DNA from: an uncultured Bacteroidales bacterium
GTDB lineage: Bacteria > Bacteroidota > Bacteroidia > Bacteroidales > UBA932
Reading direction: 5' to 3'
DNA: 64,000 bases
NCBI GenBank assembly: GCA_934680015.1
Contig: CAKUSP010000001.1
Span: 62,001 to 126,000 of the forward strand
In this document: piece by piece, positions 23,467-52,148 of the stretch
Numbering within the stretch: position 1 is the first letter of the stretch
Layout: the number at the start of each line of letters is the position of its first letter
Notes under the pieces: model-generated
What the model was told of the DNA's origin: nothing
The model's database searches: none
The model's input: only the letters and a program-made list of their open reading frames with translations
Translations under genes and position numbers: made by a program

Positions 23467-25092
23467 ATGAAAATCCGATTAATAACTCCTACCCTTTTTC
23501 TCGCTTGCACTTTATGCGCTTGTGAGCCCAAAGAAAATGTAAACAATCCTGATGACACCCCTCTTACTGCTCCATCTGAAGTGAGTGTTACACAAGTAAG
23601 TGAAGACACCTTTGATGTAAGTTGGAAAGATAATAGTAAGACAGAAAAAGGATTTGCCATTTATCTTATAAATCCTAAGGATATAGATAATAAAAGAGAG
23701 ATAGCTCAAACTGAAGCAGATATTGTCTCTTATCAATTTGTCGATAAGACTTTAGAATCAGGAAAAAGTTATTATATAGGAGTTCAGGCAAAAGCTGAAA
23801 ACTCCCAGTTTGATTCTAAAATAACAAAGGTTTTATTTACCACTGAACTTCCACCAGACCCGAACGCTCCTAAATTGGCCATAAAAAAGATAGAGAGCCA
23901 CGACGTATGTGTAACTATCGAATACGAAATGGCTAATCTTAGTAAATCCGCAGTATGTGGAGTATGTTGGAGTGAAAACGGCCAGCCAGATATAAAGTCT
24001 GAGCATCAACAGGCCCCACCTATGAGTGAAGGTGATCTAACTTCTCGTTATCAGGTTATATCAAATGTGCTTCTCGATTACGGCAAGGACTATTTTTTTA
24101 GAGCCTATGCTCAGGTAGGGAAGGAGGTATATTATAGCGAACCTATTACATGCTCTTTGGGTAAAGAGATGGATGCCATTAAATTACAATGGACTAAGGA
24201 GGAAGGTTTGTCGTTGCCGTCAAGTGTTCAATTATACAAATATTCAGGCCTTATGAATGGACGTAAATGCAATGCATGGTATGCTAGTGCCGATCTTTCG
24301 CAAGGCGATGTGGAATTTCGTGTTACGGTACCATCTAAAGCTATTACGATAGACGAGCAGTTCGCATCCTCAAAAAATTGCCTAGTAATGGTAAATGGAG
24401 GATATTTTTATAATGGAAAGAATACAGGCTTGGCTTGTGTAGACGGAATTATTTCTGGCGGTGTTTCTGCAGTAAGAGGTTCTCTTAAATCTGAGGATGA
24501 AGAATATAATGTAATGTATAATGTGACGCGTGGTGTCTTTGGTGTGGATAAAGATCAAAAGCCTTCAGTCTTTTGGACCGGTATGGATGCCTCGGGCAAA
24601 AGCTTTTTTTACACAAGGCCTCTTCCTTCTTTAAAGGGAGGTGATAAATACGCTTCTGTCAGCGATGGAAATCCTACAAATGCATTTGCATGGACACCGC
24701 TTTATGCTCAGAGTGCAGGGCCTGTGCTTCTAATGGGTGGTAAGTGCCCTTTCGATTTTGAAACCACTTCTGATGGAGCAGATTACTATCTCTCTAATTA
24801 TGAGATTATGCCTTATGATATCTATGGGACTACTGTAAAGCCAGATCGCACTGCGGCTGGATATACAGCTGATGGAAAAGTCATACTGCTTATTATAGAT
24901 GGGCGCATAGAAGAAAGTGATGGTGCGACCCTAATGGAATTGGCCGCGATTATGAAGGGATTAGGTTGCGTGGGGGCAGTTAACTTTGATGGTGGTGGCT
25001 CTACCGGTATGGTAGTAGATGGAAATCATCTAAATGACCTTACAGGAGGCAATCGACCGGTTGTTTCTACACTTGGTTTTTATAGGAAGTAG
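23467..25092 (+). CDS. Lipoprotein with FnIII domains and NAGPA-type phosphodiester glycosidase domain
   Basis: 541 aa, lipobox LCAC. One fibronectin type III-like domain spans about residues 35-125 (APSEVSVTQVSEDTFDVSWKD) and a second lies near 135-230. The C-terminal half is an NAGPA domain (PF09992): VMVNGGYFYNGKNTG near residue 305 and AVNFDGGGSTGMVVDG near 505. The human homologue removes GlcNAc from GlcNAc-1-phospho-mannose; bacterial members are mostly untested. Sitting at the head of an amino-sugar PUL and probably at the cell surface, it may cleave a sugar-phosphate diester decoration on the target glycan. The XylR-like gene follows after 5 bp. Confidence 0.8.
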   Translation: MKIRLITPTLFLACTLCACEPKENVNNPDDTPLTAPSEVSVTQVSEDTFDVSWKDNSKTEKGFAIYLINPKDIDNKREIAQTEADIVSYQFVDKTLESGKSYYIGVQAKAENSQFDSKITKVLFTTELPPDPNAPKLAIKKIESHDVCVTIEYEMANLSKSAVCGVCWSENGQPDIKSEHQQAPPMSEGDLTSRYQVISNVLLDYGKDYFFRAYAQVGKEVYYSEPITCSLGKEMDAIKLQWTKEEGLSLPSSVQLYKYSGLMNGRKCNAWYASADLSQGDVEFRVTVPSKAITIDEQFASSKNCLVMVNGGYFYNGKNTGLACVDGIISGGVSAVRGSLKSEDEEYNVMYNVTRGVFGVDKDQKPSVFWTGMDASGKSFFYTRPLPSLKGGDKYASVSDGNPTNAFAWTPLYAQSAGPVLLMGGKCPFDFETTSDGADYYLSNYEIMPYDIYGTTVKPDRTAAGYTADGKVILLIIDGRIEESDGATLMELAAIMKGLGCVGAVNFDGGGSTGMVVDGNHLNDLTGGNRPVVSTLGFYRK

Positions 25093-37276: not shown

Positions 37277-39487
37277 ATGTCACCTACATTTTTTAAGCAT
37301 GCGCTCGGGCTTTTAGTTGCATTCCTGCTGGCAAGTTGTCTAAACGTGTCAGCTTCACAGCGTGTTGTCTTAGAAAATGACTCAATGCGACTTATTCTTG
37401 ATACTAATGGATATGCTATTAGTCTTATCGACAAATACAGTGGGGAAGAGTGTCTTGATCTGGATGCTGGTATTGTGCCGTTTTGCACTCTTACGCAGTA
37501 TCGTCCCTATGACAATGAGAATTTTCTAATGTATCCGGCGAAGCCTAAAGTGTTTCCATCTAATAAAATTAGTTTCGATGGAAATAGGCTTTTGGTGGAA
37601 TTCGAAAATACTTTCGATATTGCTTGCATAGATGTAAAGATAGCAGACAACTATCTGTCATTTAATCTTTCGGAGATAGATTATAGAATAGAATCTATTG
37701 GAGTGAAACGCAGAACTGAGATAGACGAATTGGCTTTTATTAGGCTTCCTGTGAAAAAGCGTGAGCATTTCGGTGAGTGGCTGAATACTACTTGGGATGA
37801 GAACAGCGGAGTATGCCTTATTGGCACTTCAGAAAAGACACGTATTGATTCCTATTCGGATAGAGCCGGTTTGGTCATGTGGGCAGGATCCGATGCCGAA
37901 GTGTCACTTACTGGAGTCGGAGCTGCGCTTGTGGTTGCTTCTGGAGCGAGGATACTCGATATTATCGATAAAGTAGAAGAGGATTTCGATTTGCCTCGTG
38001 GAGTTAAAAGCCGTAGAAGTGAACAGTATCTATATTCATACTACGAGCTTCGCGATGTTACTGTAGATAATATAGACGAACATATCCGTTATGCCTTGAA
38101 AGGCGGCTTTAGGACCATGGTCGTTTATTATCCGGATTTTGCCAATACCTGTGGTACTTTTCTTTGGAATGAGCGCTATCCCAATGGAATAGAGGATTTA
38201 AAAACAATTACTTCCAAGATAAAGAAGGCAGGTTTAATACCTGGTTTCCATATTCACTACTCGAAAGTATCTAAAGACGATCCTTATGTTTCTGATCCCA
38301 GAGTTAATTATGTGTTGGAATTGCTACTTAACGATGGAATCGGCACAGAACAGAAGGAGATTCCTTTTGACGGATTCGCTTGTGGACTTCAATCTGAAGA
38401 TGGGCGTCGAATAGTTCGAATAGACGATGAATTGATAGAGTATGGTTCGTTCACAAAAGAAAGACCGTATTTGTTAAAAGATTGTAAGAGAGGTATTTTG
38501 GGAACAAAACCTGCTGAACATAGTAAGGGCGCTGCAGTTCGTCTTTTAGATGTTGACACATGGCCTCGTTTTATTAGGGTAGATCAAAACACTACTATTC
38601 AAGATGAGATAGCAAGTAATATAGCTGACATATATATAAATGCAGGCTTTAGTTTCGTGTATTTTGATGGGGCAGAAGATGTGCCACAACCATATTGGTA
38701 TAACGTATCAAGAGCTCAATTAGGCGTATATAATAGACTCAATCCTGAACCGCTATTTTGTGAGGGTGCGCTTAAATCGCATTTTGGCTGGCATATACTT
38801 AGCCGTGGCAATGCATTTGATCTTTTCCGTCCAGAGGATATACGTACGGCGATGAAAAAATACACACTACCATGTGCCAGGCGTATAGCTGATGATTTCA
38901 CCTCGGTTAATTTCGGATGGGTTGATTATCTGGCGCCAAGTGAAAAGACTATCGGGATGCAGCCTGACATGTATGAGTATATTTATAGCAAGGCATTGGC
39001 ATGGGATAGCCCTGTATCTGTGATGGGAAAACTCGATGAGATAAGAAGTCATCCACTTTCCAAAGATAATTTTGAAGTGATGCGTAGATGGGAAGAGGCT
39101 AAGCTACATGGAGTGTTTTCGCAAGAACAGAAGCAGATGCTTAAGAACACGGAGAAAGAGTTTATTCTTCTTTACGATAAGAAGGGGAAAGCTCAATTGT
39201 ATGAATATAAGATACTTCCAATAGCAGATAACGCAGGAATTAGAGCTTTTACTTTCGAAAGAAATGGTAAGAATTGTATAGTGTATTGGGCCAATGGACT
39301 TAATGATATAAGCGAAGTATCGTTGCCTTGCAAGGTGAAAGTTATAGATATTAATGGAAAGCCTGTACGATATAAAAAAGGAGACGGAATAACAATCATT
39401 CCTGTGGGAGAGCGTCGAATCATTGAGCCGGAAGAGGCTATAAATGAGATTTTTGTAAATGTTGTTAATAATATAAATAATAGATAA
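37277..39487 (+). CDS. Exported protein of unknown function, possible TIM-barrel glycoside hydrolase
   Basis: 736 aa with a signal peptide ending FLLASC, a lipobox-like end. I do not recognise a named family. Residues 28-240 look like an N-terminal beta-sandwich. Residues 245-560 resemble a TIM barrel: FRTMVVYYPDFANTCG, GLIPGFHIHYS, then FSFVYFDGAEDV with D464, and FGWHILSRGN. A short C-terminal beta domain (VYWANGLNDIS) closes it. This is the layout of clan GH-D-like and GH101-like hydrolases, with D464 a possible nucleophile. It is joined to its neighbour by a 1-bp TAATG overlap, so the two are probably made together. The function is open. Confidence 0.55.
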   Translation: MSPTFFKHALGLLVAFLLASCLNVSASQRVVLENDSMRLILDTNGYAISLIDKYSGEECLDLDAGIVPFCTLTQYRPYDNENFLMYPAKPKVFPSNKISFDGNRLLVEFENTFDIACIDVKIADNYLSFNLSEIDYRIESIGVKRRTEIDELAFIRLPVKKREHFGEWLNTTWDENSGVCLIGTSEKTRIDSYSDRAGLVMWAGSDAEVSLTGVGAALVVASGARILDIIDKVEEDFDLPRGVKSRRSEQYLYSYYELRDVTVDNIDEHIRYALKGGFRTMVVYYPDFANTCGTFLWNERYPNGIEDLKTITSKIKKAGLIPGFHIHYSKVSKDDPYVSDPRVNYVLELLLNDGIGTEQKEIPFDGFACGLQSEDGRRIVRIDDELIEYGSFTKERPYLLKDCKRGILGTKPAEHSKGAAVRLLDVDTWPRFIRVDQNTTIQDEIASNIADIYINAGFSFVYFDGAEDVPQPYWYNVSRAQLGVYNRLNPEPLFCEGALKSHFGWHILSRGNAFDLFRPEDIRTAMKKYTLPCARRIADDFTSVNFGWVDYLAPSEKTIGMQPDMYEYIYSKALAWDSPVSVMGKLDEIRSHPLSKDNFEVMRRWEEAKLHGVFSQEQKQMLKNTEKEFILLYDKKGKAQLYEYKILPIADNAGIRAFTFERNGKNCIVYWANGLNDISEVSLPCKVKVIDINGKPVRYKKGDGITIIPVGERRIIEPEEAINEIFVNVVNNINNR

Positions 39488-41502: not shown

Positions 41503-42693
41503 ATGAAAGGATTGAAATTAGTCATATTATTTCTCGCAGGTGCACTTATCTGCGCTTGCGAGAGTAATAGGCCTGCCGATGTCCCAGATTGGCGGGACTT
41601 TATAGGAGAAAAACCCGGAGAAGACGATGTCCCAGAAGTATCCAAGGATAAAGTACCATCTGATATGGTGCTTATTTACGGGGGAAGTGCTCATCGTAAC
41701 CCCGTTAAATGGAGTGGCAACTACCTTAAGGAATATGTGATTTATAATGATAGGAGTGGGAAGAAGCATTGGCTTTTCGATGGTTTTTTATGCCTTGAGT
41801 TTATGTATGTCAATGTCCCTACTGGAAATAAGACCTTTATTACTGGTTATTCCTATAATGGAGTGAAGCTTCCTTCAGCCACTAAGTATGAGTGGCAATC
41901 CTTGATAGATTATTATTTCGAAATGGATGGAGGTCTTAATGCTATAGAAAAAGCGGTGGAATTGGCATCGGAAGAAATGGGATCTGCCCCTAAGACTAAA
42001 CGAAAAGTGGTCATCGGTATCCCGGAACCTATAACTAACGAGTATTATTCGAATACTTCGAGTTCTACTATGTATTGGGGGAAATTAAATGGGAAGGAAT
42101 TGGACTTTTCTCTAACTTCAGATAGACTCTCTGCATGCAAATGGTACATAGATGAGATCGCTACGCGCTTTAAAGCACAAAAGTATAAGTACATCGATTT
42201 GGTAGGGTTTTACTGGGTAGCGGAAAAGGCGACTAACACTAGGGATCTTATGAATAAAGTGGGAGAGTATCTTAATGCTAATGATTTCACTTTTAATTGG
42301 ATACCATACTTTAATGCGGATGGATTTTCAGAATGGAAGAAATACGGATTTAATGTAGCATATCTTCAGCCTAATTATTTTTTCAGTGATACAGTTCCGG
42401 AGGGTCGCTTAGATGAAGCCTGCGATTATGCGAAGCGTTATAATATGGGCATGGAAATAGAATTCGATGGTAATGCCTTAGAAGCTAATGGAAAAGGTTA
42501 TAAACTAGAGAATTATATGAAGGCTTTCAAGAAAAATGGAATTTGGGAGTCTTGCCCTATTGCGTATTATCAGGGAAGCTGGGCGCTTAAATGGTTAAGA
42601 GGTTCGGTCAATTCCGAGTATAATCAGAGGCTATATCACGATTTCTGTGAATTTGTAATAACAAGACCATATAGAACTAAAGATGATGAATAA
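41503..42693 (+). CDS. DUF4855 lipoprotein
   Basis: 396 aa, lipobox ICAC near residue 18. DUF4855 blocks are clear: SDMVLIYGGSAHRNPVKWSG, HWLFDGFLCLEF, KVVIGIPEPI, LSACKWYIDEIATRFKA, LVGFYWVAEKATNTRD, YFNADGF and GMEIEFDGNAL. The family has no firm activity but is frequent in glycan-degradation loci and has the look of a TIM-barrel hydrolase. It starts 1 bp after the DUF6259-like stop and overlaps the transporter gene by 11 bp, which ties these genes tightly together. Confidence 0.82.
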   Translation: MKGLKLVILFLAGALICACESNRPADVPDWRDFIGEKPGEDDVPEVSKDKVPSDMVLIYGGSAHRNPVKWSGNYLKEYVIYNDRSGKKHWLFDGFLCLEFMYVNVPTGNKTFITGYSYNGVKLPSATKYEWQSLIDYYFEMDGGLNAIEKAVELASEEMGSAPKTKRKVVIGIPEPITNEYYSNTSSSTMYWGKLNGKELDFSLTSDRLSACKWYIDEIATRFKAQKYKYIDLVGFYWVAEKATNTRDLMNKVGEYLNANDFTFNWIPYFNADGFSEWKKYGFNVAYLQPNYFFSDTVPEGRLDEACDYAKRYNMGMEIEFDGNALEANGKGYKLENYMKAFKKNGIWESCPIAYYQGSWALKWLRGSVNSEYNQRLYHDFCEFVITRPYRTKDDE

Positions 42694-43993
42694 AACTAAA
42701 ACCAATATAGGCGCAATGGTCATACTCGCCGTGATGTTTTTTATCTTTGGCTTTGTCTCATGGGTGAATTCCATACTAATTCCTTATTTTAGAATTTCCT
42801 GTGAATTAACTCATTTCGAGTCTTATTTTGTGACTTTCGCTTTTTACATAGCCTATTTTATAATGGCTATACCATCGAGCATACTCCTAAAAAAGACAGG
42901 ATTCAAAAACGGCATTATGGTGGGCTTTATGATTATGGCTCTCGGTATGTTCGTATTCGTTCCTGCCGCATTGGTAAGGGAGTTTGCGCTTTTCTTGACA
43001 GGACTTTTCCTTATTGGTACAGGTCTAGCCATACTTCAGACAGCTGCCAATCCTTACGTTACCATTATCGGGCCAATCGAGAGTGCGGCACGTCGCATCA
43101 GCGTAATGGGTATATGCAATAAGGTAGCAGGTATCATATCGCCTCTTGTCTTCGCTGCGGTCATCCTTAACCCTTCGGATAGCCAGATGTTTGATCTTAT
43201 CGAATCAGGAACTCTTGACCAGATAAGTAAAAACGCTATTCTGGATGATTTGATACGCAGAGTAATAGTTCCTTACGCCATTTTGGGCACGGCGCTTTTG
43301 ATTTTCGGCGTATTTGTTAAATTCTCTTCGCTTCCAGAAATTGATACGGAAGAAAGTAATGGTGAGGCTAAAGGCGATTCTTATGAAAATCGCAAGAGTG
43401 TCTTTTCCTATCCTTACTTGGTGTTAGGTGCTATCGCTATATTCTTTCATGTAGGTAGTCAGGTAGTTGCGATAGATACTGTAATTAATTATGCAGGCTC
43501 CATGGGCGTGAATATGTTGGAAGCCAAGGTGTTCCCTTCGTATACATTGGCCTGTACGATGATAGGCTATATCATAGGTATTTTCTTGATCCCGAAGGTG
43601 ATTTCGCAACGCACCGCTCTTGTAGGTTGTTCTGTGCTAGGATTGATACTATCGTTGTGTGCTGTTTTGGTGGATGTTCCGGTAGTTTTTATGGGCCATC
43701 ATGTGAATCTGTCGCTTTTGTTCTTGTGTGCTTTGGGCTTTCCGAATGCTCTTATTTATGCTTCGATCTGGCCACTATCCATACATAATTTGGGCAAATT
43801 TACCAAGACTGGATCTTCTCTTCTTATAATGGGTCTTTGTGGCAATGCTATAATGCCTCAGATATACGGGCTTATCGCACAGCATAGTACATTTAGAAAT
43901 GGATATTGGGTGCTTATCCCATGCTTTTTGTATTTGATATTCTTCGCCGTTAAAGGATATAAGATTAATTATTGGCATAAAAAGAGAGCTTAA
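42683..43993 (+). CDS. MFS sugar transporter (FucP/NagP-like)
   Basis: 436-aa inner-membrane protein with about 12 hydrophobic helices. It shows the fucose/glucose/galactose-MFS pattern FGFVSWVNSILIPYFRISCEL and LIGTGLAILQTAANPYVTIIGP, plus FPNALIYASIWPLSIHNLG in the second half. The start is either of two adjacent ATGs at 42683 and 42686 and overlaps the DUF4855 gene. Immediately upstream of nagA and nagB, its best-guess cargo is GlcNAc or GalNAc released by the GH20 enzyme. A uronate cargo cannot be excluded. Confidence 0.85.
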   Translation: MMNKTKTNIGAMVILAVMFFIFGFVSWVNSILIPYFRISCELTHFESYFVTFAFYIAYFIMAIPSSILLKKTGFKNGIMVGFMIMALGMFVFVPAALVREFALFLTGLFLIGTGLAILQTAANPYVTIIGPIESAARRISVMGICNKVAGIISPLVFAAVILNPSDSQMFDLIESGTLDQISKNAILDDLIRRVIVPYAILGTALLIFGVFVKFSSLPEIDTEESNGEAKGDSYENRKSVFSYPYLVLGAIAIFFHVGSQVVAIDTVINYAGSMGVNMLEAKVFPSYTLACTMIGYIIGIFLIPKVISQRTALVGCSVLGLILSLCAVLVDVPVVFMGHHVNLSLLFLCALGFPNALIYASIWPLSIHNLGKFTKTGSSLLIMGLCGNAIMPQIYGLIAQHSTFRNGYWVLIPCFLYLIFFAVKGYKINYWHKKRA

Positions 43994-43998
43994 GAGAG

Positions 43999-45195
43999 AT
44001 GGATAGACTAATAATAAAAGGAGGAAAAGTCGTTCTACCTGATGCTATTTGCAGTGGTTTGGATATAATCTGCGACAAGAAAAGTGGAAAGATAGTTGAT
44101 ATCGTTTTTAATTCAGATATCCAACCGGAAAGCACGGATGAAGTTATAGATGTGCATGGTAATTATGTCAGTCCAGGCTTTGTGGATATTCACGTGCATG
44201 GTGGTGGAGGCTATGATTTTATGGATGGTACTGTTCAGGCTTTTTTAGGAGCTGCTCGCATGCATGCCGTTCATGGTACCACATCTATGATTCCGACCAC
44301 ACTAACATGTACTGACGAGGAGCTTTTTAGAGTTTTCGATGTCTTTGAGATGGCTCGAGGGCTTAATAAAGATGGTGCTCAGATGTTAGGCTTGCATCTT
44401 GAAGGGCCTTTTTTCTCTGCAGCGCGTAGTGGAGCGCAGGACCCATCATATCTTAAGAATCCTGTACCAGAGAATTATATGAAGTTTCTAGATGCTACAG
44501 ATAAGATAATGAGATGGAGTGTGGCTCCAGAACTGGAAGGGGCTATGGAATTTGGTGATGAATTGTCAAAAAGAGGCATTCTTGCTTCCATAGCGCATTC
44601 GGATGCTATATGTGAAGTGGCTCAAGAAGCTTATCGCCATGGTTATACTCATGTCACGCATCTATATTGTGCTATGTCCACAATAGTGAGAAAGAATGCA
44701 TTCCGCTATGCCGGTGTTCAGGAAGCGGCTTATTTGGTGGATGATATGACAGTAGAGATCATTGCAGATGGGGTTCATCTTCCTAAATCGTTGCTCCAAT
44801 ATGCTTACAAATTTAAAGGACCAGATAAAACGGCATTATGCACTGATTCTATGCGTGCCGCCGGTATGCCTGATGGAGAATACATGTTAGGCAGCCTAGA
44901 GAAGGGGCAAATGGTAATAGTGGAGGATGGCGTTGCGAAACTTCCAGACAGAAGCGCATTTGCCGGAAGTGTGGCCACTACAGATAGGCTAGTTCGCACC
45001 ATGATAGAATTGGCCGATGTTCCATTAGAACATGCTGTTAAGATGATGACACTCACCCCATCACGTATTATGCATATAGATGATAGAAAAGGTTCTCTCA
45101 AGGTGGGAAAAGATGCAGATATAGTGGTGTTTGATGAAGGTATAAATGTAAAATACACCATCTGTGCTTCGAAAATAATTTATAAATCAGAATAA
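43999..45195 (+). CDS. nagA: N-acetylglucosamine-6-phosphate deacetylase
   Basis: 398-aa cytoplasmic amidohydrolase that removes acetate from GlcNAc-6-P. Metal-site motifs are HVHGGGGYDFMDG (His65, His67), LHLEGPFFS with the Glu ligand, IAHSDA and THLYCAMS, and the catalytic Asp lies in CTDSMRAAG. The start is 5 bp after the transporter stop; nagB follows by 9 bp. It could also process GlcNAc-6-P made by the MurQ branch. I see no amino-sugar kinase in this operon to make its substrate. Confidence 0.93.
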   Translation: MDRLIIKGGKVVLPDAICSGLDIICDKKSGKIVDIVFNSDIQPESTDEVIDVHGNYVSPGFVDIHVHGGGGYDFMDGTVQAFLGAARMHAVHGTTSMIPTTLTCTDEELFRVFDVFEMARGLNKDGAQMLGLHLEGPFFSAARSGAQDPSYLKNPVPENYMKFLDATDKIMRWSVAPELEGAMEFGDELSKRGILASIAHSDAICEVAQEAYRHGYTHVTHLYCAMSTIVRKNAFRYAGVQEAAYLVDDMTVEIIADGVHLPKSLLQYAYKFKGPDKTALCTDSMRAAGMPDGEYMLGSLEKGQMVIVEDGVAKLPDRSAFAGSVATTDRLVRTMIELADVPLEHAVKMMTLTPSRIMHIDDRKGSLKVGKDADIVVFDEGINVKYTICASKIIYKSE

Positions 45196-45204
45196 TACAT
45201 AGAT

Positions 45205-45963
45205 ATGAGATCTTTTATGAAAGACCAGTTGATGGTCAAGATATATGATACGACACAGCAAATGGGCGAGGCTGCAGCGTGTGAAGTGTCCGAGTGTATA
45301 AAAAGTATGCTCTCTGAAAAAGAAGAGATAAATATGATATTTGCTGCCGCGCCATCGCAAAGTGCTTTCCTGTCTTCTCTTATAGAGGATAAGAGCATAG
45401 AATGGCAGAGGGTAAATGCATTCCATATGGATGAATACATAGGAATAGATGGAAGTAAACCACAAAGTTTCGGTAATTTTCTTTATAGAAGCATTTTTTC
45501 AAAGGTACCTTTTAAAACGGTTAATTATCTTAATGGCGTGGCACCAGATATAGAGGCTGAATGCCATCGTTATGCCTCTTTACTTAAAGATTACCCTGTG
45601 GATATCGTTTGCTTAGGTATAGGAGAAAACGGACACATCGCTTTTAATGACCCGGCTTTTGCCGATTTTAATGATCCTAAGCTGGTTAAAGTAGTGGAAT
45701 TAGATAATATTTGTCGTACACAGCAAGTGCACGAGAAGTGTTTTCCTACGCTCGACGATGTGCCTAAGAAGGCTATGACACTGACGATTCCAGCTCTTCT
45801 CAGAGCAGAGAGGATGTTCTGCATTGTGCCTTTTACTAACAAGGCCAAGGCTGTAAAACGTATGCTCGAAGGCGAGATTTCCGAAGAATGTCCTGCAACT
45901 ATTCTGCGGAAAAAACAGAATTCTTGCTTATATTTGAATAATGAAAGTTCATCACTTTTATAA
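45205..45963 (+). CDS. nagB: Glucosamine-6-phosphate deaminase
   Basis: 252-aa NagB/RpiA-fold enzyme that converts glucosamine-6-P to fructose-6-P and ammonia. Motifs are RVNAFHMDEYIG (D76, E77), the active-site LGIGENGHIAFNDP, and MTLTIPALLRAERM near the C-terminus. It is slightly short compared with E. coli NagB (266 aa). The first Met at 45205 and a second at 45217 are both possible starts. It completes the NagA-NagB route to glycolysis and is followed after 9 bp by the first oxidoreductase. Confidence 0.88.
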   Translation: MRSFMKDQLMVKIYDTTQQMGEAAACEVSECIKSMLSEKEEINMIFAAAPSQSAFLSSLIEDKSIEWQRVNAFHMDEYIGIDGSKPQSFGNFLYRSIFSKVPFKTVNYLNGVAPDIEAECHRYASLLKDYPVDIVCLGIGENGHIAFNDPAFADFNDPKLVKVVELDNICRTQQVHEKCFPTLDDVPKKAMTLTIPALLRAERMFCIVPFTNKAKAVKRMLEGEISEECPATILRKKQNSCLYLNNESSSLL

Positions 45964-45972
45964 CACTACTAC

Positions 45973-46989
45973 ATGAAACGGATTATTGCTTCTGCCATTA
46001 CGGCGCTTATGTTCTCCTTCGTGCTAAATGCGCAGGAAGATGTCATAAAGATTGGTATCATAGGATTGGATACCTCACATTCTACAGCTTTTACTCAATT
46101 GCTTAATAGCGATGAGGATAACCCTTATGTAAAAAAATTCGAGATAGTGGCTGCTTACCCTTATGGTTCGCAAACTATAGAGTCAAGTTATAAACGCATT
46201 CCGGGGTACATCGAAGAAGTGAAAAAATATGGGGTTGTCATTACCGAAAGCATTGCGCAGATGCTTGACATGGTGGATTGTGTGCTACTCGAAACAAATG
46301 ACGGACGTCTTCACTTGGAGCAAGCTATAGAGGTGTTTAAATCAGGCAAATTATGCTATGTAGATAAGCCTGCTGGGGCTACCCTAGGTGAAACTATTGC
46401 ACTTTATCACGCGGCTGCAGAATACGGTATTCCGATTTTTTCTTCATCTGCTCTTAGATATTCTCCAGAAAATGTAAAGATAAGAAACGGAGAGTATGGA
46501 ACTGTATTGGGAGCCGATTGCTATTCGCCACACCACCCGGAACCGACACATCCGGATTTTGGATTTTATGGAATACATGGAGTTGAAACTCTGTACACTG
46601 TTATGGGATGTGGATGCGAAAGTGTAAGTAGAGTGCATTCAGAGTATGGAGATATAGTTTCAGGTGTGTGGAAAGATGGCAGATTGGGCACTTTTAGAGC
46701 TGTTTCAAAGGGACCTAATATCTATGGCGGTACTGTCATTACAGAAAATGGAACTATACAGGCTGGTGGCTATGCTGGATATATGGTGCTGTTAGAGCGT
46801 ATCTTAGATTATTTTCAAAGTGGTGTGGCCCCTATAAGTCCTGAAGAGACAATAGAGATTTTCGCTTTCATGAAAGCTTCAAATATGAGTCTAGAAAAAG
46901 GCGGAAAGCAAGTCACACTTGAACAGGCCTATAAAATGGGCGAAAAAGACGCTAAAAAACTTTTGAAAAAATATGGCATTGAATTATAA
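45973..46989 (+). CDS. Exported Gfo/Idh/MocA family oxidoreductase 1
   Basis: 338 aa. A Sec signal peptide ending LNAQ precedes an NAD(P)-binding Rossmann-like start KIGIIGLDTSHSTAF, in which the usual GxGxxG is changed to GLDTSH. CYVDKPAGATLGE contains the conserved Lys of the EKP-type motif, and the second domain follows (FGFYGIHGVETLYTVMG). With the altered glycine motif, cofactor binding is uncertain. It overlaps oxidoreductase 2 by 17 bp, so the two may form a heteromer. It is the first of four exported paralogues in 6 kb; the substrate is unknown. Confidence 0.78.
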   Translation: MKRIIASAITALMFSFVLNAQEDVIKIGIIGLDTSHSTAFTQLLNSDEDNPYVKKFEIVAAYPYGSQTIESSYKRIPGYIEEVKKYGVVITESIAQMLDMVDCVLLETNDGRLHLEQAIEVFKSGKLCYVDKPAGATLGETIALYHAAAEYGIPIFSSSALRYSPENVKIRNGEYGTVLGADCYSPHHPEPTHPDFGFYGIHGVETLYTVMGCGCESVSRVHSEYGDIVSGVWKDGRLGTFRAVSKGPNIYGGTVITENGTIQAGGYAGYMVLLERILDYFQSGVAPISPEETIEIFAFMKASNMSLEKGGKQVTLEQAYKMGEKDAKKLLKKYGIEL

Positions 46990-48301
46990 GAAAAGTATAG
47001 GGCTTTTCTTAATGCTCTCATCCATTATATCCTGTAAGGATAAAAGCGTGACACTTAATGTGATAGACCCGGGGCATTTTCACGCTTCGCTGCTTCAAAA
47101 AAGTAGCCTTGAAGGGGTTGATCATAAGGTTAATGTTTATGCTCCGCAGGGAGTGGAATTAGATCAATATCTAATGGCTATCGACGGGTATAATATCCGT
47201 GTAGATAATCCCACATCATGGCAGGAACAGCTTTATGTGGGCGATGATTTTATAGCTCACCTGCCAAAGGGCTCAGGACACGACGTAGTAATGCTGGCAG
47301 GAAATAATCGCAGGAAATCAGACTACATCTTTGCGTCAGTTGAAAAATACTATAATGTCCTATCCGATAAGCCAATGGCTATAGACCAGGAAGGGTGGAA
47401 GAAGTTGAAATCATCATATGATGCGGCAGATAGAAAAGGGCTTGTGCTATATGACCTTATGACTGAGCGATATGATATTTTGAATGTCATAGTACGTGAT
47501 ATCATAAAAGACAGAAATGTTTTCGGAGAGTTCGAAGCACAAAATGGGTCGACTGTAAGCATGAGAAGTGTCCATCATTTCTATAAAGAGGTGGGAGGAA
47601 GCGCTTTAAAGCGCCCGCAGTGGTATTACGATGTGACTCAACAGGGCGAAGGCATAGCAGATGTAACTACGCATCTAATCGATTTGGTCTTCTGGCAATG
47701 TTTCCCAGAGCAGTGTATAGAGCCTAGTAATGTCAGTGTACAAGAAGCTTCTCATTACCCGACGTGGATAAGCCGGAATCAATACGAACTTTCTACGGGA
47801 GCCGATGATTTCCCTTCATATTTAAAGCCGATAGAGGAAAATGGTTCTATCCCGGTAATGGCTAATGGTTGCATTGATTTTAAAGTTTTTGACATGCCAG
47901 TGCGTATGGAAGTAAAGTGGAATTGGACTCCAGAAAGTGGTTCAGGCGATACTTTCGAGGCTGTATATTATGGAACTAAGACTGATGTGGTGGTTCGCCA
48001 AGACGCTTCAACTGGTTTTGTTAAGAACATTTTCCTGACAAATAATTCTCAGTCAACATATAATGCTTTAAAAGATATCTTGAAAAAGTATCCTGGAGTA
48101 AGAGCTGAAAGCCTGGAGCATGGGATAGCTGTTATAGTGCCTATGGAATGTAGGATAAGCCATGAGGATCATTTTAATATGGTGGCTTCGCAGTTTTTAA
48201 AATATGTTAGAGGGGAAGAAAAGATGCCTTTATGGGAGAAGAGCAACACCTTAACCAAATACTACATTACAACTAAAGCGGTGGAAATGGCTTCATTATG
48301 A
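46973..48301 (+). CDS. Lipoprotein Gfo/Idh/MocA-like oxidoreductase 2 (putative oxidoreductase C-terminal domain)
   Basis: 442 aa. The ATG at 46973 overlaps oxidoreductase 1 by 17 bp and gives a signal peptide ending SIISC, a lipobox. The Rossmann part lacks a clear GxGxxG (VIDPGHFHASLLQKSS), but SDKPMAIDQEGW keeps the DKP block. The second half matches the putative oxidoreductase C-terminal domain seen in Bacteroidetes (GGSALKRPQWYYDVTQQGEG, VEVKWNW-like VRMEVKWNWTPESGSGD). It would be held in the periplasm or on the surface. It overlaps the ApbE-like gene by 4 bp (ATGA). Confidence 0.75.
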   Translation: MALNYKKSIGLFLMLSSIISCKDKSVTLNVIDPGHFHASLLQKSSLEGVDHKVNVYAPQGVELDQYLMAIDGYNIRVDNPTSWQEQLYVGDDFIAHLPKGSGHDVVMLAGNNRRKSDYIFASVEKYYNVLSDKPMAIDQEGWKKLKSSYDAADRKGLVLYDLMTERYDILNVIVRDIIKDRNVFGEFEAQNGSTVSMRSVHHFYKEVGGSALKRPQWYYDVTQQGEGIADVTTHLIDLVFWQCFPEQCIEPSNVSVQEASHYPTWISRNQYELSTGADDFPSYLKPIEENGSIPVMANGCIDFKVFDMPVRMEVKWNWTPESGSGDTFEAVYYGTKTDVVVRQDASTGFVKNIFLTNNSQSTYNALKDILKKYPGVRAESLEHGIAVIVPMECRISHEDHFNMVASQFLKYVRGEEKMPLWEKSNTLTKYYITTKAVEMASL

Positions 48302-49113
48302 GTTTGACGCAGGAAGTGGTTTACTATGACGATTGTCATCTTTTTCATGGAAGCATTCCGCGTGTGATGGGGACCCGCTTCGATCTTTTGATAACGGATA
48401 CTCCTAAAAGTCATGCCTTGAGTATATGGAATAGGGTAAAGGATTTGCTCGAAAAAGAAGAGACAGTTTTTAACCGCTTTTCTCCTGATAGTGAAGTAAG
48501 TGCTGTAAATAAAGCGCTTAAAGAGAACGGAAAGGTAGTGTTAAGTGAGGAACTATGCGAATGTATAAGGCTCAGTTTAGAATACAAAAGAAGAAGCGAA
48601 GGGCTATTTGATATAACTCGAAATAGTGCTTTTAATTTAAGCCTAAACGGGAATCTACTTAATGTTGGCATGACAGGTTGCGATTTAGACTTTGGGGGCT
48701 TTGCAAAGGGATGGTCATTGAAAAAAGTAGTCGAACTTTTAGTAAGTGAGGATGTTAGGTCGGCATTTGTGGATTTCGGAAAAAGTTCCATTTACGCTTT
48801 AGGACATCACCCGGCGGGGGATTGCTGGATGGTAGAAGTGACATCTCCTTTCGATGGTCATGTGGTTGACACCTTTAGGCTTAATGATCAGGCACTTTCT
48901 ACATCAGGAAATACGCCAGGATATACAGGTCATATAGTGAATCCACTTAATGGCAGGGCCAATGCACTAGCGATGATGACTTCGGTGCTGAGTTCAGATG
49001 CCCTTGATGCAGAGGTTTTAAGCACCGCATATATGCTATGTGATAGCGAAGAGAAAAGGTGTAATATAAAGAAAGAATTCAGCGAGGCTGAGTTTAAAGT
49101 ATATTGTTTTTGA
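48298..49113 (+). CDS. ApbE-like FAD:protein FMN transferase without signal peptide
   Basis: 271 aa, shorter than the usual 330-350. The ApbE core is present: PRVMGTRFDLLI, FNRFSPDSEVSAVNK, LDFGGFAKGWSLKKV (about 128-142), LSTSGN near 200 and DAEVLSTAYML. Known members attach FMN to Thr in exported redox proteins. Two oddities are visible: there is no signal peptide or lipobox, and the Asp four residues before the conserved Thr243 appears to be Glu239. No obvious flavinylation partner with a DGxxGAT-type motif is seen nearby. Its position among exported oxidoreductases hints at electron transfer, but this is inference. Confidence 0.75.
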   Translation: MSLTQEVVYYDDCHLFHGSIPRVMGTRFDLLITDTPKSHALSIWNRVKDLLEKEETVFNRFSPDSEVSAVNKALKENGKVVLSEELCECIRLSLEYKRRSEGLFDITRNSAFNLSLNGNLLNVGMTGCDLDFGGFAKGWSLKKVVELLVSEDVRSAFVDFGKSSIYALGHHPAGDCWMVEVTSPFDGHVVDTFRLNDQALSTSGNTPGYTGHIVNPLNGRANALAMMTSVLSSDALDAEVLSTAYMLCDSEEKRCNIKKEFSEAEFKVYCF

Positions 49114-49115
49114 TA

Positions 49116-50441
49116 ATGGAATATAAAGAGAAGTTGGCCCTGGACATGGGCAGAAGAGAATTTATCAGAAATCTGGGATATTTGACCGGAGGCGCGGCAT
49201 TACTGTCATCTATGCCTTGGCTTTCGTCATGTACGCCCGAAAGGTTGAAAGAAACCGCAGGTCAAAAGGCCCGACTCGCGCTCATTGGCACAGGCTCAAG
49301 AGGCCAATATCACATTCATAATTTAAAGCTTTTTCCTCATGCGCAGATAGTTGCCCTCTGCGATATCTATGAGCCTAATCTTAAGCAAGCAGCCGAGTTA
49401 TGCCCAGAGGCAAGACTCTATACAGATTATAGAAAAGTTCTAGAATGTAAAGATATAGATGGAGTTATAATCTCCACCCCGCTAAGTGTTCATGCTCCGG
49501 TCACCCTTGATGCTTTATCTGCAGGAAAGCATGTCTTCTGTGAAAAAGCTATGGCAAGGACGCTCGATGAATGCAGAGCTATTTACGATGCCTATCAAAG
49601 AAGCGATCGTGCACTATATTTTTGTATGCAACGCATGTATGACCCTAAGTACATAAAAGGTATGCAGCTTATACGCGATGGACTGATAGGCGAGGTCGTA
49701 GGAATGAGGTGTCACTGGTTTAGAAATGCCGATTGGCGTAGAGAAGTGCCTTCGCCGGAACTTGAAAGAGCGATTAATTGGCGTCTTTACAAAGAGTACT
49801 CTGGTGGACTTATGACCGAACTTGCTTGCCATCAGTTAGAGGTATGTAACATGGCAGCGGGTAAGATCCCTGAAAGTGTCACTGGTATGGGTGATATTGT
49901 GTTTTGGAAAGACGGACGCGAGGTGTATGATGCCGTAAATGTCATTTATAGATATAAAGACGGGCGGAAGATTAATTACGAATCGCTCATTTCTAATAAA
50001 TTCAACGGCATGGAAGATCAGATTCTCGGTCATAAAGGGACGATGGATTTGACAAAAGGTGTTTATTATCTGGAAGAAGATAATACCCGCTCCGGCATAG
50101 AAACGCTTATCGGCAGTGTAAGAGATAAGGTATTTTCATCTGTTCCGCTAGCAGGACCGAGTTGGAGGCCAGAAGTAAAAGGCAATGCCATTCCTCACGC
50201 AATAATAGAGGGAAAGGTAAGTGTTAACGGCGGACAGAATATGATAGGGGTGGATAATGACGCTTCGGATACTATCCTGTCTGCATTCTGCACTTCATGT
50301 ATTACCGGTGAAAAGGCTAAGGATGTAGTGGAAGAAGCTTATTGCTCTACAGTGCTATGCCTTTTGGGAAATATGGCCATGGAACAGCAACGTACTATAC
50401 ATTTCCCAGATTATTATAAGATTCCATATATGAAGTTTTAG
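49116..50441 (+). CDS. Tat-exported Gfo/Idh/MocA oxidoreductase 3 (GH109-like)
   Basis: About 441 aa from the ATG at 49116; the frame reaches back to a TTG at 49104 inside apbE. A twin-arginine signal (GRREFIRNLGY) ends near LSSC, so it may be a Tat lipoprotein. The Rossmann motif is ALIGTGSRGQYHIHN, followed by CDIYEP and FCEKAMART. The second domain has YSGGLMTELACHQLEVCN and GMGDIVFWKDGREVYDAVN. Tat export implies folding with bound NAD(H) in the cytoplasm. Related proteins include the NAD-dependent GH109 alpha-N-acetylgalactosaminidases, a plausible activity in a hexosamine PUL. Confidence 0.85.
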   Translation: MEYKEKLALDMGRREFIRNLGYLTGGAALLSSMPWLSSCTPERLKETAGQKARLALIGTGSRGQYHIHNLKLFPHAQIVALCDIYEPNLKQAAELCPEARLYTDYRKVLECKDIDGVIISTPLSVHAPVTLDALSAGKHVFCEKAMARTLDECRAIYDAYQRSDRALYFCMQRMYDPKYIKGMQLIRDGLIGEVVGMRCHWFRNADWRREVPSPELERAINWRLYKEYSGGLMTELACHQLEVCNMAAGKIPESVTGMGDIVFWKDGREVYDAVNVIYRYKDGRKINYESLISNKFNGMEDQILGHKGTMDLTKGVYYLEEDNTRSGIETLIGSVRDKVFSSVPLAGPSWRPEVKGNAIPHAIIEGKVSVNGGQNMIGVDNDASDTILSAFCTSCITGEKAKDVVEEAYCSTVLCLLGNMAMEQQRTIHFPDYYKIPYMKF

Positions 50442-50443
50442 CT

Positions 50444-50680
50444 ATGAAAGATATAATATTGAAAGGAAATGTCATTAGACGGGAGTTGTTAGTGGCTTTG
50501 TGCTGCTTTCTACTGTCATTTTGCATAAACATCGTGGCAGTGATAGTATATGTAAAGCCATGGACGGAGATTTTTACCCAGATCGGGTATGTAGTGATTA
50601 TAGGCGCAGTTTTTTACTGTATAATGTGGGCGTTCAGATTACTTTATCTGGTTATTAGAAAATTAATTGTAAAATTATAA
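50444..50680 (+). CDS. Small two-helix membrane protein
   Basis: 78 aa with two strongly hydrophobic segments, about residues 14-36 and 44-68, and positive ends (RR near 12 and RK near 70). It begins 2 bp after oxidoreductase 3 and precedes oxidoreductase 4. I do not recognise a family. Position and tight spacing suggest that it anchors or assists the neighbouring Tat-exported enzymes, for example as a membrane subunit; there is no haem-binding His pair to suggest electron carriage. Confidence 0.65.
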   Translation: MKDIILKGNVIRRELLVALCCFLLSFCINIVAVIVYVKPWTEIFTQIGYVVIIGAVFYCIMWAFRLLYLVIRKLIVKL

Positions 50681-50804
50681 ACCTAAGACTGGCGAAAGTG
50701 GCCATAAGAGAAGAAACGAATTATTTCAATACAGCTTCTAAATGATGCGGCTTAGTATGAAGGTTTTTTAACAAGTTGAATTTAAACACGAAAAAGACAA
50801 TATT

Positions 50805-52148
50805 ATGACTTCAAGAAGAGATTTTATCAAAAATGCAGCTCTCGCTACAGCATCGCTTTCTCTTTCAAGCGTGCTTCCGAGCTTTGCGATTTCAAGAAAA
50901 GGTTCGCCCATTATCGGGGCCAATGATCGTATCCGCATCGGTGTGATAGGTGTCAATTCCAGAGGTAGTGCATTGGCACAAGGCTTTGCCAAGATGCCTA
51001 ACTGCGAAGTTACCTTTCTGTGCGATTGCGATAAGAACGCGCTCGAAAGATGCCGTCAGCAAATCAAAGATCTAACTGGAAAATCCCCTAAAGTGGAGGT
51101 GGATATTCGCCGAATGTTAGAATCAAGCGAATTCGATGCTGCGGTAATAGCCATGCCTGACCACTGGCATGCTAAAGCGGCTATTATGGCCATGAAGGCT
51201 GGAAAGCATGTATATCTCGAGAAACCTACAAGTCATAATCCTGCTGAAAACGAACTGCTTATACGTGCGGCAGTGAAATATGGAAAAGTCATCCAGGTAG
51301 GAAATCAAAGGCGATCTTGGCCTAATATAATAGCCGCTATAGATGAAATCAAGGCCGGTAACATCGGTAAAGTGCACTACGCTAAATCGTGGTATGTGAA
51401 TAACCGCCCATCTATCGGTACAGGAAAGGTGGTGCCTGTTCCAGCTAATCTAGATTGGAATCTCTGGCAGGGACCAGCTCCGCGTACCGAATATAAGGAC
51501 AACATAGTGCATTACAATTGGCATTGGTTCTGGAATTGGGGAACGGGAGAGGCTCTTAACAATGGAACGCACTTCGTAGATTTGATGCGTTGGGGATTGG
51601 ATGTGGAATACCCTACACTAGTAAGTTCGGTAGGAGGGCGTTATCGCTATCAAGACGATTGGCAGACCCCAGACACCCAACTTATTACCTATCAGTTCGG
51701 AGATCGTGCCGCAGGGTCTTGGGAAGGCCGTAGCTGTAACAATTCTCCAGTTGACGGCGATGGCGTAGGTGTGGCTTTCTATGGAGAAACTGGAACACTA
51801 TATCTTAATGGAGGTAATGAGTATAAGATTAAGGACCTCGGTGGAAATATCGTAAAGGACGTAAAGAGCGAATTGAAATTCGAAACAGGTAACCTTCTCA
51901 ATCCTAGCGAACAACTGGATGCATTCCATTTCGAAAACTGGTTCAATGCTATCCGTAAGGGCGAAAAATTACATTCTGACATAAACGAAGCCTGCATAAG
52001 CACTCAGCTCGTTCAGCTTGGTAATATAGCACAGCGTGTGGGACACTCTTTGAAAATAGAACCGGTCAGCGGACATATTATCGATGATCCAGATGCTCAA
52101 AAACTCTGGGGAAGAGAGTATGAACCAGGTTGGGGTATTGAGATATAA
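50805..52148 (+). CDS. Tat-exported Gfo/Idh/MocA oxidoreductase 4
   Basis: 447 aa. The Tat signal is SRRDFIKNAALATASLSLSS, ending around SFA. The Rossmann motif is IGVIGVNSRGSALAQGF, with CDCDKNALERC, AAVIAMPDHWHAKAA and VYLEKPTSH. The second domain carries NWHWFWNWGTGEALNNGTHFVD, rich in aromatic residues and His. This is the best-conserved NAD-dependent member of the four. A gap of 124 bp precedes it, without a clear TAnnTTTG box, and the uronate gene kdgK follows 4 bp after its stop. The substrate is unknown; linkage to kdgK suggests a uronate-containing sugar. Confidence 0.87.
   Translation: MTSRRDFIKNAALATASLSLSSVLPSFAISRKGSPIIGANDRIRIGVIGVNSRGSALAQGFAKMPNCEVTFLCDCDKNALERCRQQIKDLTGKSPKVEVDIRRMLESSEFDAAVIAMPDHWHAKAAIMAMKAGKHVYLEKPTSHNPAENELLIRAAVKYGKVIQVGNQRRSWPNIIAAIDEIKAGNIGKVHYAKSWYVNNRPSIGTGKVVPVPANLDWNLWQGPAPRTEYKDNIVHYNWHWFWNWGTGEALNNGTHFVDLMRWGLDVEYPTLVSSVGGRYRYQDDWQTPDTQLITYQFGDRAAGSWEGRSCNNSPVDGDGVGVAFYGETGTLYLNGGNEYKIKDLGGNIVKDVKSELKFETGNLLNPSEQLDAFHFENWFNAIRKGEKLHSDINEACISTQLVQLGNIAQRVGHSLKIEPVSGHIIDDPDAQKLWGREYEPGWGIEI

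Follow-up and report, generated by a model that had tools for sequence, protein, structure and literature searches.

A conserved ApbE-GFO3 pair points to a candidate covalently flavinylated Gfo/Idh/MocA oxidoreductase in a Bacteroidales polysaccharide utilization locus

For sugar dehydrogenases that are exported with a bound NAD, how NADH gets reoxidised away from the cytosol is an open question. Here, we analyse a six-gene oxidoreductase module from an uncultured Bacteroidales bacterium, located in a polysaccharide utilization locus (PUL) on contig CAKUSP010000001.1 (GCA_934680015.1); the window is the 64,000-nt stretch of this contig that was analysed, and all coordinates are positions in it. 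The module encodes four Gfo/Idh/MocA proteins (GFO1 to GFO4), a small membrane protein (TM78) and a relative of ApbE, the enzyme that attaches flavin mononucleotide (FMN) to Ser or Thr residues of acceptor proteins (Table 1). The genes, positions and spacing reported in an earlier note on this DNA agree with the open reading frame (ORF) list, and candidate export signals of the kinds it names are seen as well: those of GFO1, GFO2 and GFO3 are recognizable by eye, and GFO4 passes the twin-arginine translocation (Tat) model TIGR01409 with 23 bits. The longest GFO3 ORF opens at a TTG at 49104; translation from the ATG listed in Table 1 gives a protein 100% identical to database protein P0241 (441 aa).

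Scanning genome contigs with an ApbE alignment (A1) yielded 57 loci (L numbers designate loci throughout), a sample selected by ApbE, of which 55 are titled Bacteroidota; the other two (L056, L057) match weakly and come from Proteobacteria. In 42 of the 57, ApbE and GFO3 are immediate neighbours on the same strand. Gene counts at these loci come from pruned gene lists and are therefore undercounts: all six module genes occur together in 11 loci, and nine hold these six plus the NagA-like and NagB-like genes that precede them in the window, while 19 hold only ApbE, GFO3 and TM78 of the eight and six hold ApbE alone. The six-gene set of the earlier note is thus conserved elsewhere but is not indivisible. 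It splits into a core, the ApbE-GFO3-TM78 triad, and an N-acetylhexosamine (HexNAc) variant that adds NagA, NagB, GFO1, GFO2 and GFO4. Two loci (L017, L030) share the order GH20, U736, DUF6259, NAGPA, DUF4855, GFO1, GFO2, ApbE, GFO3, TM78, GFO4, and a run of MFS carrier, NagA and NagB leading into GFO1 recurs in L003, L005, L013, L016, L020, L053 and others.

Because the 57 loci had been chosen by ApbE, a search with GFO3 alone was run. At E values up to 1e-35 it matched 15 of 247 Bacteroidales genomes at 17 places, two of which are fragments of one genome (G063). ApbE adjoins GFO3 or lies within about 4 kb of it at 15 of the 17 places, the exceptions being a contig-edge fragment that retains TM78 (L091) and a locus without ApbE and TM78 (L092). 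Together with the 42 adjacent pairs of the ApbE scan, this association exceeds chance. TM78 adjoins GFO3 in all 16 loci from L058 to L073 (five from ApbE-selected genomes) and was undetected in L096-L099. A phylum-wide search found GFO3 matches in 36 of 296 genomes at 42 places, of which 29 new ones were examined as DNA; the 12 without a locus are L063 and 11 that were left out. ApbE is next door to GFO3 at 17 of the new places, including L105, where it lies just upstream, and is absent from the flanks of about 1.5 kb at the other 12; one genome, G331, has an ApbE about 11 kb away.

Some loci place the core in other surroundings. Distant second GFO3-TM78 copies occur in L080, with a 3-keto-disaccharide hydrolase and ApbE, and in L081, behind SusC and SusD with GH76, GH43 and GH88 and with no ApbE in 20 kb. 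In L008, L011, L019, L021 and L022 the core adjoins a class II tRNA synthetase-like gene, apart from window-type PUL genes.

The ApbE-like protein of the window matches PF02424 with 128 bits against a cut-off of 25.6, and profile A1 finds solved ApbEs, the best at 100.7 bits. Its gene starts within the end of GFO2 and its N-terminus reads MSLTQEVVYYDD, so it carries no signal peptide. We compared 72 ApbEs of the triad clade (the window protein and those of all 55 Bacteroidota scan loci included, some without a detected GFO3) with 26 other ApbEs from 15 searched genomes (including L148, L160 and L161, which lie beside a GFO3 homologue, and a few over-long ORFs). Over residues 1-45, a rough hydropathy test picks out 7 of the 72 versus 18 of the 26, some of the proteins picked out being ORFs with an early start. 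His212, in an H-I-x-[DN]-P segment, is kept in 71/72 triad-clade and 26/26 other proteins. In the D-x-[LA]-[SA]-T segment, Glu239 of the window protein replaces the Asp of solved ApbEs, which we take to bind metal; 71 of the triad-clade proteins have Glu at this position and one has Gln, against 24 of the others with Asp and two with Asn. Excerpts of PMC12052999 ascribe a catalytic role to ApbE His257. In a tree of 73 of 105 rows (44 of the 72, 22 of the 26, and 7 of 7), the triad ApbEs form one clade with a support of 100/100; the ApbEs beside L104/L107, L115-L119 and L116 fall outside it, that of L116 among ordinary ApbEs. All seven triad genomes tested hold further ApbE genes, and each of the 15 searched genomes, including the 13 without an ApbE near GFO3, holds one. 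In L024 (9968-15645) and in L012 (4361-10110), a run of sugar-kinase-like, Lar_N (lactate racemase-like), 6PGD and SDR genes opens with a triad-clade ApbE.

An ApbE acceptor motif, D-x-x-[ST]-G-A-[ST], has been published (PMC12052999, excerpts), and we examined it in 67 triad-type GFO3s, 13 homologues with no ApbE in flanks of about 1.5 kb and 11 distant homologues with ApbE next door, the fragments L090, L091 and L093 having been dropped. The strict motif is present in 12 of the 13 homologues without a nearby ApbE, the thirteenth (L102) reading DGVAGAT, and in none of the 67 triad-type GFO3s, of which the window protein reads L-A-G-P-S-W. At the same loop, [AGS][GS][APTS][ST]W occurs in all 67 triad-type proteins versus none of the 13. 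Database homologues follow the same division: all 120 close homologues of the window GFO3 carry [AG]G[PAST][ST]W, and among the best 120 homologues of the L102 protein the strict motif is present in 78 and D-x-x-[STA]-G-A-[ST] in 118. As background, D[GASN].[ST]GA[ST] was found in 0/685 proteins of at least 150 aa from the 57 ApbE-scan loci and in 0/66 GFO1, GFO2 and GFO4 proteins. The loop is highly conserved though its confidence score (pLDDT) is below 50 in an AlphaFold2 (AF2) model of GFO3. An hhalign comparison of intermediates that read G-G-A-[ST]-W (A5) with A4 aligns G-A-T with G-A-T, a coincidence reached only through such intermediates. From the alignment registers taken together, the shared loop is therefore firm, and the triad Ser likely corresponds to the Thr acceptor of the published motif.

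Because sister proteins carry the published motif, triad proteins carry their own motif at the same loop and triad ApbEs form their own clade with Glu, we predict that GFO3 carries covalent FMN, which we regard as the likeliest reading and reasonably probable. Other acceptors were considered and set aside: TM78 has no Ser or Thr common to all rows, and GFO1, GFO2 and GFO4 are missing from many triads and lack the motif. A broader proposal is that Gfo/Idh/MocA proteins make up an undescribed Bacteroidota class of ApbE targets, combining FMN with NAD as glycoside or NADH:quinone oxidoreductases outside the cytosol, and that in the triad a cytosolic Glu-for-Asp ApbE co-evolved with a rewritten motif into a second flavinylation code beside the ordinary ApbE. 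This is tentative, and we place it a shade below an even chance.

The Glu-for-Asp change might instead mark an ApbE that attaches no FMN and works on a different molecule or has a partner role, with the loop motif serving oligomer or partner contacts. The conserved substitution at the Asp of solved ApbEs and the divergence of the acceptor motif fit such a repurposed protein, but the near-invariant His, the ordinary acceptor motif in sister GFO3 homologues and the pairing in L116 of a DGVSGAT homologue with an ordinary-type ApbE gene next door all argue otherwise, and we think repurposing improbable.

A more distant group of GFO3 homologues bears on what a flavinylated GFO3 may do. In five genomes (L118-L122) the homologue is followed downstream by an iron-sulfur (FeS)/CCG-domain protein, recognized by Pfam in L132 and by similarity in the relatives, with four to five hydrophobic stretches (L132, L133); the group also includes L115 and L117, where it is absent. 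The EK motif reads EA or ES in L115 and L117-L122 (larger stretches L129, L131-L133) and the His is lost in most, and ApbE still adjoins. FeS and CCG domains together with such hydrophobic stretches are typical of quinone-linked electron transfer. Because homologues without the catalytic Lys, and mostly without the His, retain ApbE, and five of them have the FeS/CCG neighbour, an electron-transfer role is favoured, and in the triad TM78 may be the partner that fills the membrane position.

GFO3 itself has a GTGSRG loop of the GxGxxG type and retains both the EK-motif Lys and the His. This Lys and His would suit a redox-neutral keto pathway in which GFO4 oxidises a glycoside and the 3-keto sugar set free is reduced by GFO3, or the two roles are exchanged, with NAD recycled between them; any FMN would then aid only stability or hydride exchange and pass no electrons to the membrane. 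A GFO4 homologue stands directly beside a GFO3 homologue, with no adjoining ApbE, in 8 of 13 loci (L100-L103, L106, L108-L110), and the BT2156-BT2160 cluster of Bacteroides thetaiotaomicron is reportedly of this kind. Such a pathway leaves unexplained both the dedicated ApbE and membrane protein at most triads and the FeS/CCG membrane protein of L118-L122, and we consider it unlikely.

Of the four NAD(P) enzymes assumed in the earlier note, two are unlikely to be such, since the glycine motif usual for NAD is missing from GFO1 and GFO2: in place of GxGxxG, GFO1 reads G-L-D-T-S-H (residues 31-36, about 46063-46080), invariant in 22 aligned rows, and GFO2 reads P-G-H-F-H-A (residues 33-38, about 47069-47086), as do its aligned relatives. 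Both are probably not dehydrogenases, and GFO1 may rather be a lyase, hydratase or isomerase. No solved relative of GFO1 was found by sequence; its AF2 model (pLDDT 90.1) matches Gfo dehydrogenases and, as an ordinary Gfo fold, was set aside as a pointer to a new activity. The solved relative of GFO2, 4oo3 (332 bits), is of unknown function.

GFO4, with the glycine loop GVNSRG, may be a glycoside 3-dehydrogenase. Its nearest solved structures by sequence are 8tdf and 8tdh, which we take to stem from the work on BT2156-BT2160. It scores 162.9 bits and GFO3 86.7 bits with BT_2158_fam, whose curated cut-off is 750, so at 163 bits GFO4 is not filed in that family; in L020 a member (821.8 bits), which served as a positive control, comes next after a run of ApbE, GFO3, TM78 and a single esterase-like gene. 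BT2158 is a periplasmic glycoside 3-dehydrogenase (PMC11300592, excerpts). The 3-keto-disaccharide hydrolase profile PF06439 (Pfam-checked in L080, L082, L084, L134 and L135) matches in 21 of 163 loci. Eleven genomes have the hydrolase close to the core or to a homologue, eight with a triad-type GFO3 and three with a D-x-x-[ST]-G-A-[ST] homologue (L112, L113, L116), and a twelfth (L086) has it 6 kb away. No such hydrolase was found among the window PUL proteins scanned. The neighbours in relatives strengthen the earlier view of a redox module within a PUL, linked there to 3-keto glycoside enzymes, and the flavin involvement guessed at has become more specific, with ApbE paired with GFO3 and its acceptor-type loop. 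The suggested likeness to GH109 and GH188 fared less well: the fold is the same, and by structure the GFO3 model is similar to 8qc5, 8qc6 and 8qc8, which are NAD-dependent glycoside hydrolases, but sequence matches are weak (GFO3 to 6t2b 48.6, 8qc2 47.3 and 2ixa 40.9 bits; GFO4 to 2ixa 33.3 and 6t2b 29.9 bits), and GH109 membership was rejected.

The MFS, NagA-like and NagB-like genes would serve uptake and catabolism of released HexNAc. Since they directly precede GFO1 in many loci, one may ask whether the module merely interconverts HexNAc in the periplasm (for example GalNAc or ManNAc to GlcNAc) through keto intermediates before uptake and the NagA and NagB steps, with no glycosidic bond opened. 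The 19 loci that hold the core without window-type PUL enzymes agree with such epimerisation; the 3-keto-disaccharide hydrolase and BT2158-type neighbours in relatives point to glycosides as the substrates, and we rate epimerisation improbable.

Starting from what is read in sequence, namely the conserved triad, the loop motifs, the Glu-for-Asp ApbE clade and the neighbouring genes, we predict flavinylation, export, electron flow, C3 chemistry and a substrate as follows. GFO3 would be a Gfo/Idh/MocA sugar oxidoreductase bearing covalent FMN, placed by the adjoining cytosolic ApbE on the Ser or Thr of the flexible [AG]-G-[PAST]-[ST]-W loop before the folded protein leaves by the Tat route, and TM78 would keep GFO3 at the membrane. 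Sugars, or the NADH that a partner carries (GFO4, a BT2158-like glycoside 3-dehydrogenase), would donate hydride to GFO3, which would pass the electrons by way of its FMN to the membrane chain, so that NAD-bound sugar oxidation could turn over outside the cytosol. In the PUL of the window, the core would work in a 3-keto route adapted to HexNAc, with GFO4 oxidising C3 of a HexNAc glycoside, GFO1 and GFO2, which lack the NAD loop, carrying out elimination, hydration or isomerisation, and the freed HexNAc being imported by the MFS carrier and passed to NagA and NagB. We give this full account, of which the substrate is the least certain part, a little better than an even chance of being right.

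Several observations weigh against it. Direct MAFFT and hhalign comparisons (A2-A4) align Trp with Trp, placing the triad Ser two columns beyond the Thr of G-A-T, and the triad motif lacks the Asp of the published one; in the account's favour, a change of that Asp to Ala had only a minor effect (PMC12052999, excerpts). Ala stands at the [ST] place in 40/120 DGV-type homologues, and the strict motif occurs in only one (L116) of the 11 distant homologues with an adjoining ApbE. Thr238 of GFO3 tracks ApbE equally well (Thr or Ser in 67/67 triad-type proteins, Ala in 13/13 without ApbE) and lies in an active-site segment; Ala or Gly in distant ApbE-linked homologues told against it as the acceptor, and it is retained as a second candidate. 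As the triad ApbEs fall in a single clade, one event may lie behind both the motif and the Glu, and the Fisher test on the loop-motif contrast ignores kinship. L064 is included among the triad-type proteins, and the 20 kb of its stretch L081 contain no ApbE; no GFO3 was detected in the loci of four triad-clade ApbEs (L014, L041, L044, L049). Export of GFO3 is not certain, because RR.F is present in only 36 of the 67 triad-type proteins and [LNK]R.F in 28 (a lipobox-like Cys then follows in 41/67). TM78 has no invariant His or Cys. Loci of the NagA/NagB type show no 3-keto-disaccharide hydrolase beyond a 31-bit match in L010.

Known ApbE systems (NqrC, RnfG, fumarate reductase, DUF2271, DUF3570, Flavodoxin_4, FMN_red) likewise have apbE beside the presumed target, and the sister GFO3 proteins share their D-x-x-[ST]-G-A-[ST]; the differences here lie in a Gfo/Idh/MocA sugar oxidoreductase as the presumed target, a diverged triad motif and a Glu-for-Asp ApbE. 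With BT2156-BT2160 the module shares exported Gfo/Idh/MocA enzymes and, in relatives of the core, the 3-keto-disaccharide hydrolase; unlike that cluster, the window has ApbE, GFO3 and TM78, a GFO4 under the BT_2158_fam cut-off, and no such hydrolase among the PUL proteins scanned. GFOR of Zymomonas mobilis is a Gfo/Idh/MocA protein exported with its cofactor bound; we know of no ApbE or acceptor loop for it, and GFO3 scores no more than 57.6 bits against 1evj. Klebsiella has a known cytosolic ApbE (PMC12052999, excerpts), and BT2156-BT2160 is mentioned in excerpts of PMC11501099. The survey in PMC8238504, by an excerpt of its text, dropped genes without a signal peptide and would therefore hide an ApbE of the window type. 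'Gfo' is absent from the excerpts of PMC8238504, PMC11334425 and PMC12052999, and a literature search that left preprints and most subscription papers outside returned no paper, judged by title, of relevance to ApbE or flavinylation joined with Gfo/MocA; novelty is not proven. If the account is right, a partner of like fold that bears covalent FMN would be one way in which exported NADH is reoxidised, non-hydrolytic glycan breakdown would be joined to respiration in Bacteroidota, and ApbE would gain a new substrate class, perhaps with a second ApbE/motif pair for flavin tagging.

Table 1. Features of the module and its immediate upstream genes in the window
Feature	Position	Strand	Length	Spacing to preceding gene	Basis and description
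MFS carrier, NagA-like deacetylase, NagB-like deaminase	42683-45963	+			Pfam and neighbour order
GFO1	45973-46989	+	338 aa		PF01408; Sec-like start by eye; predicted secreted, Gfo fold
GFO2	46973-48301	+	442 aa	17-bp overlap	PF16490 only; lipobox by eye
ApbE-like	48298-49113	+	271 aa	4-bp overlap	PF02424
GFO3	49116-50441	+		2-bp gap	PF01408; Tat-type Gfo/Idh/MocA protein; G-R-R-E-F by eye; predicted covalent FMN
Thr238 codon (numbered from TTG 49104)	49815-49817	+			Second acceptor candidate; residue tracks ApbE presence
Predicted FMN acceptor Ser codon	50160-50162	+			A-G-P-S-W; Ser353 from TTG 49104, Ser349 from ATG 49116; codon position calculated from the start of the gene
TM78	50444-50680	+	78 aa	2-bp gap	Two hydrophobic stretches; no Pfam family
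GFO4	50805-52148	+		124-bp gap	PF01408; Tat-type; BT2158-like

Upstream of the module, Pfam assigns the PUL genes to NAGPA, SusC, SusD, GH20, DUF6259, DUF4855, MFS, NagA-like and NagB-like proteins; downstream lie KDG-kinase-like, KDPG-aldolase-like, UxuA and mannonate-oxidoreductase genes. U736 (37277-39487), a 736-aa protein with no Pfam family, sits between GH20 and DUF6259 here as in L017 and L030. It and the DUF6259 protein were considered as a hidden eliminase and dropped, the sequence search having given no useful structure match. The PUL is headed by the NAGPA gene (23467-25092), which encodes a phosphodiester glycosidase with an fn3 domain and hints at a GlcNAc phosphodiester in the substrate.

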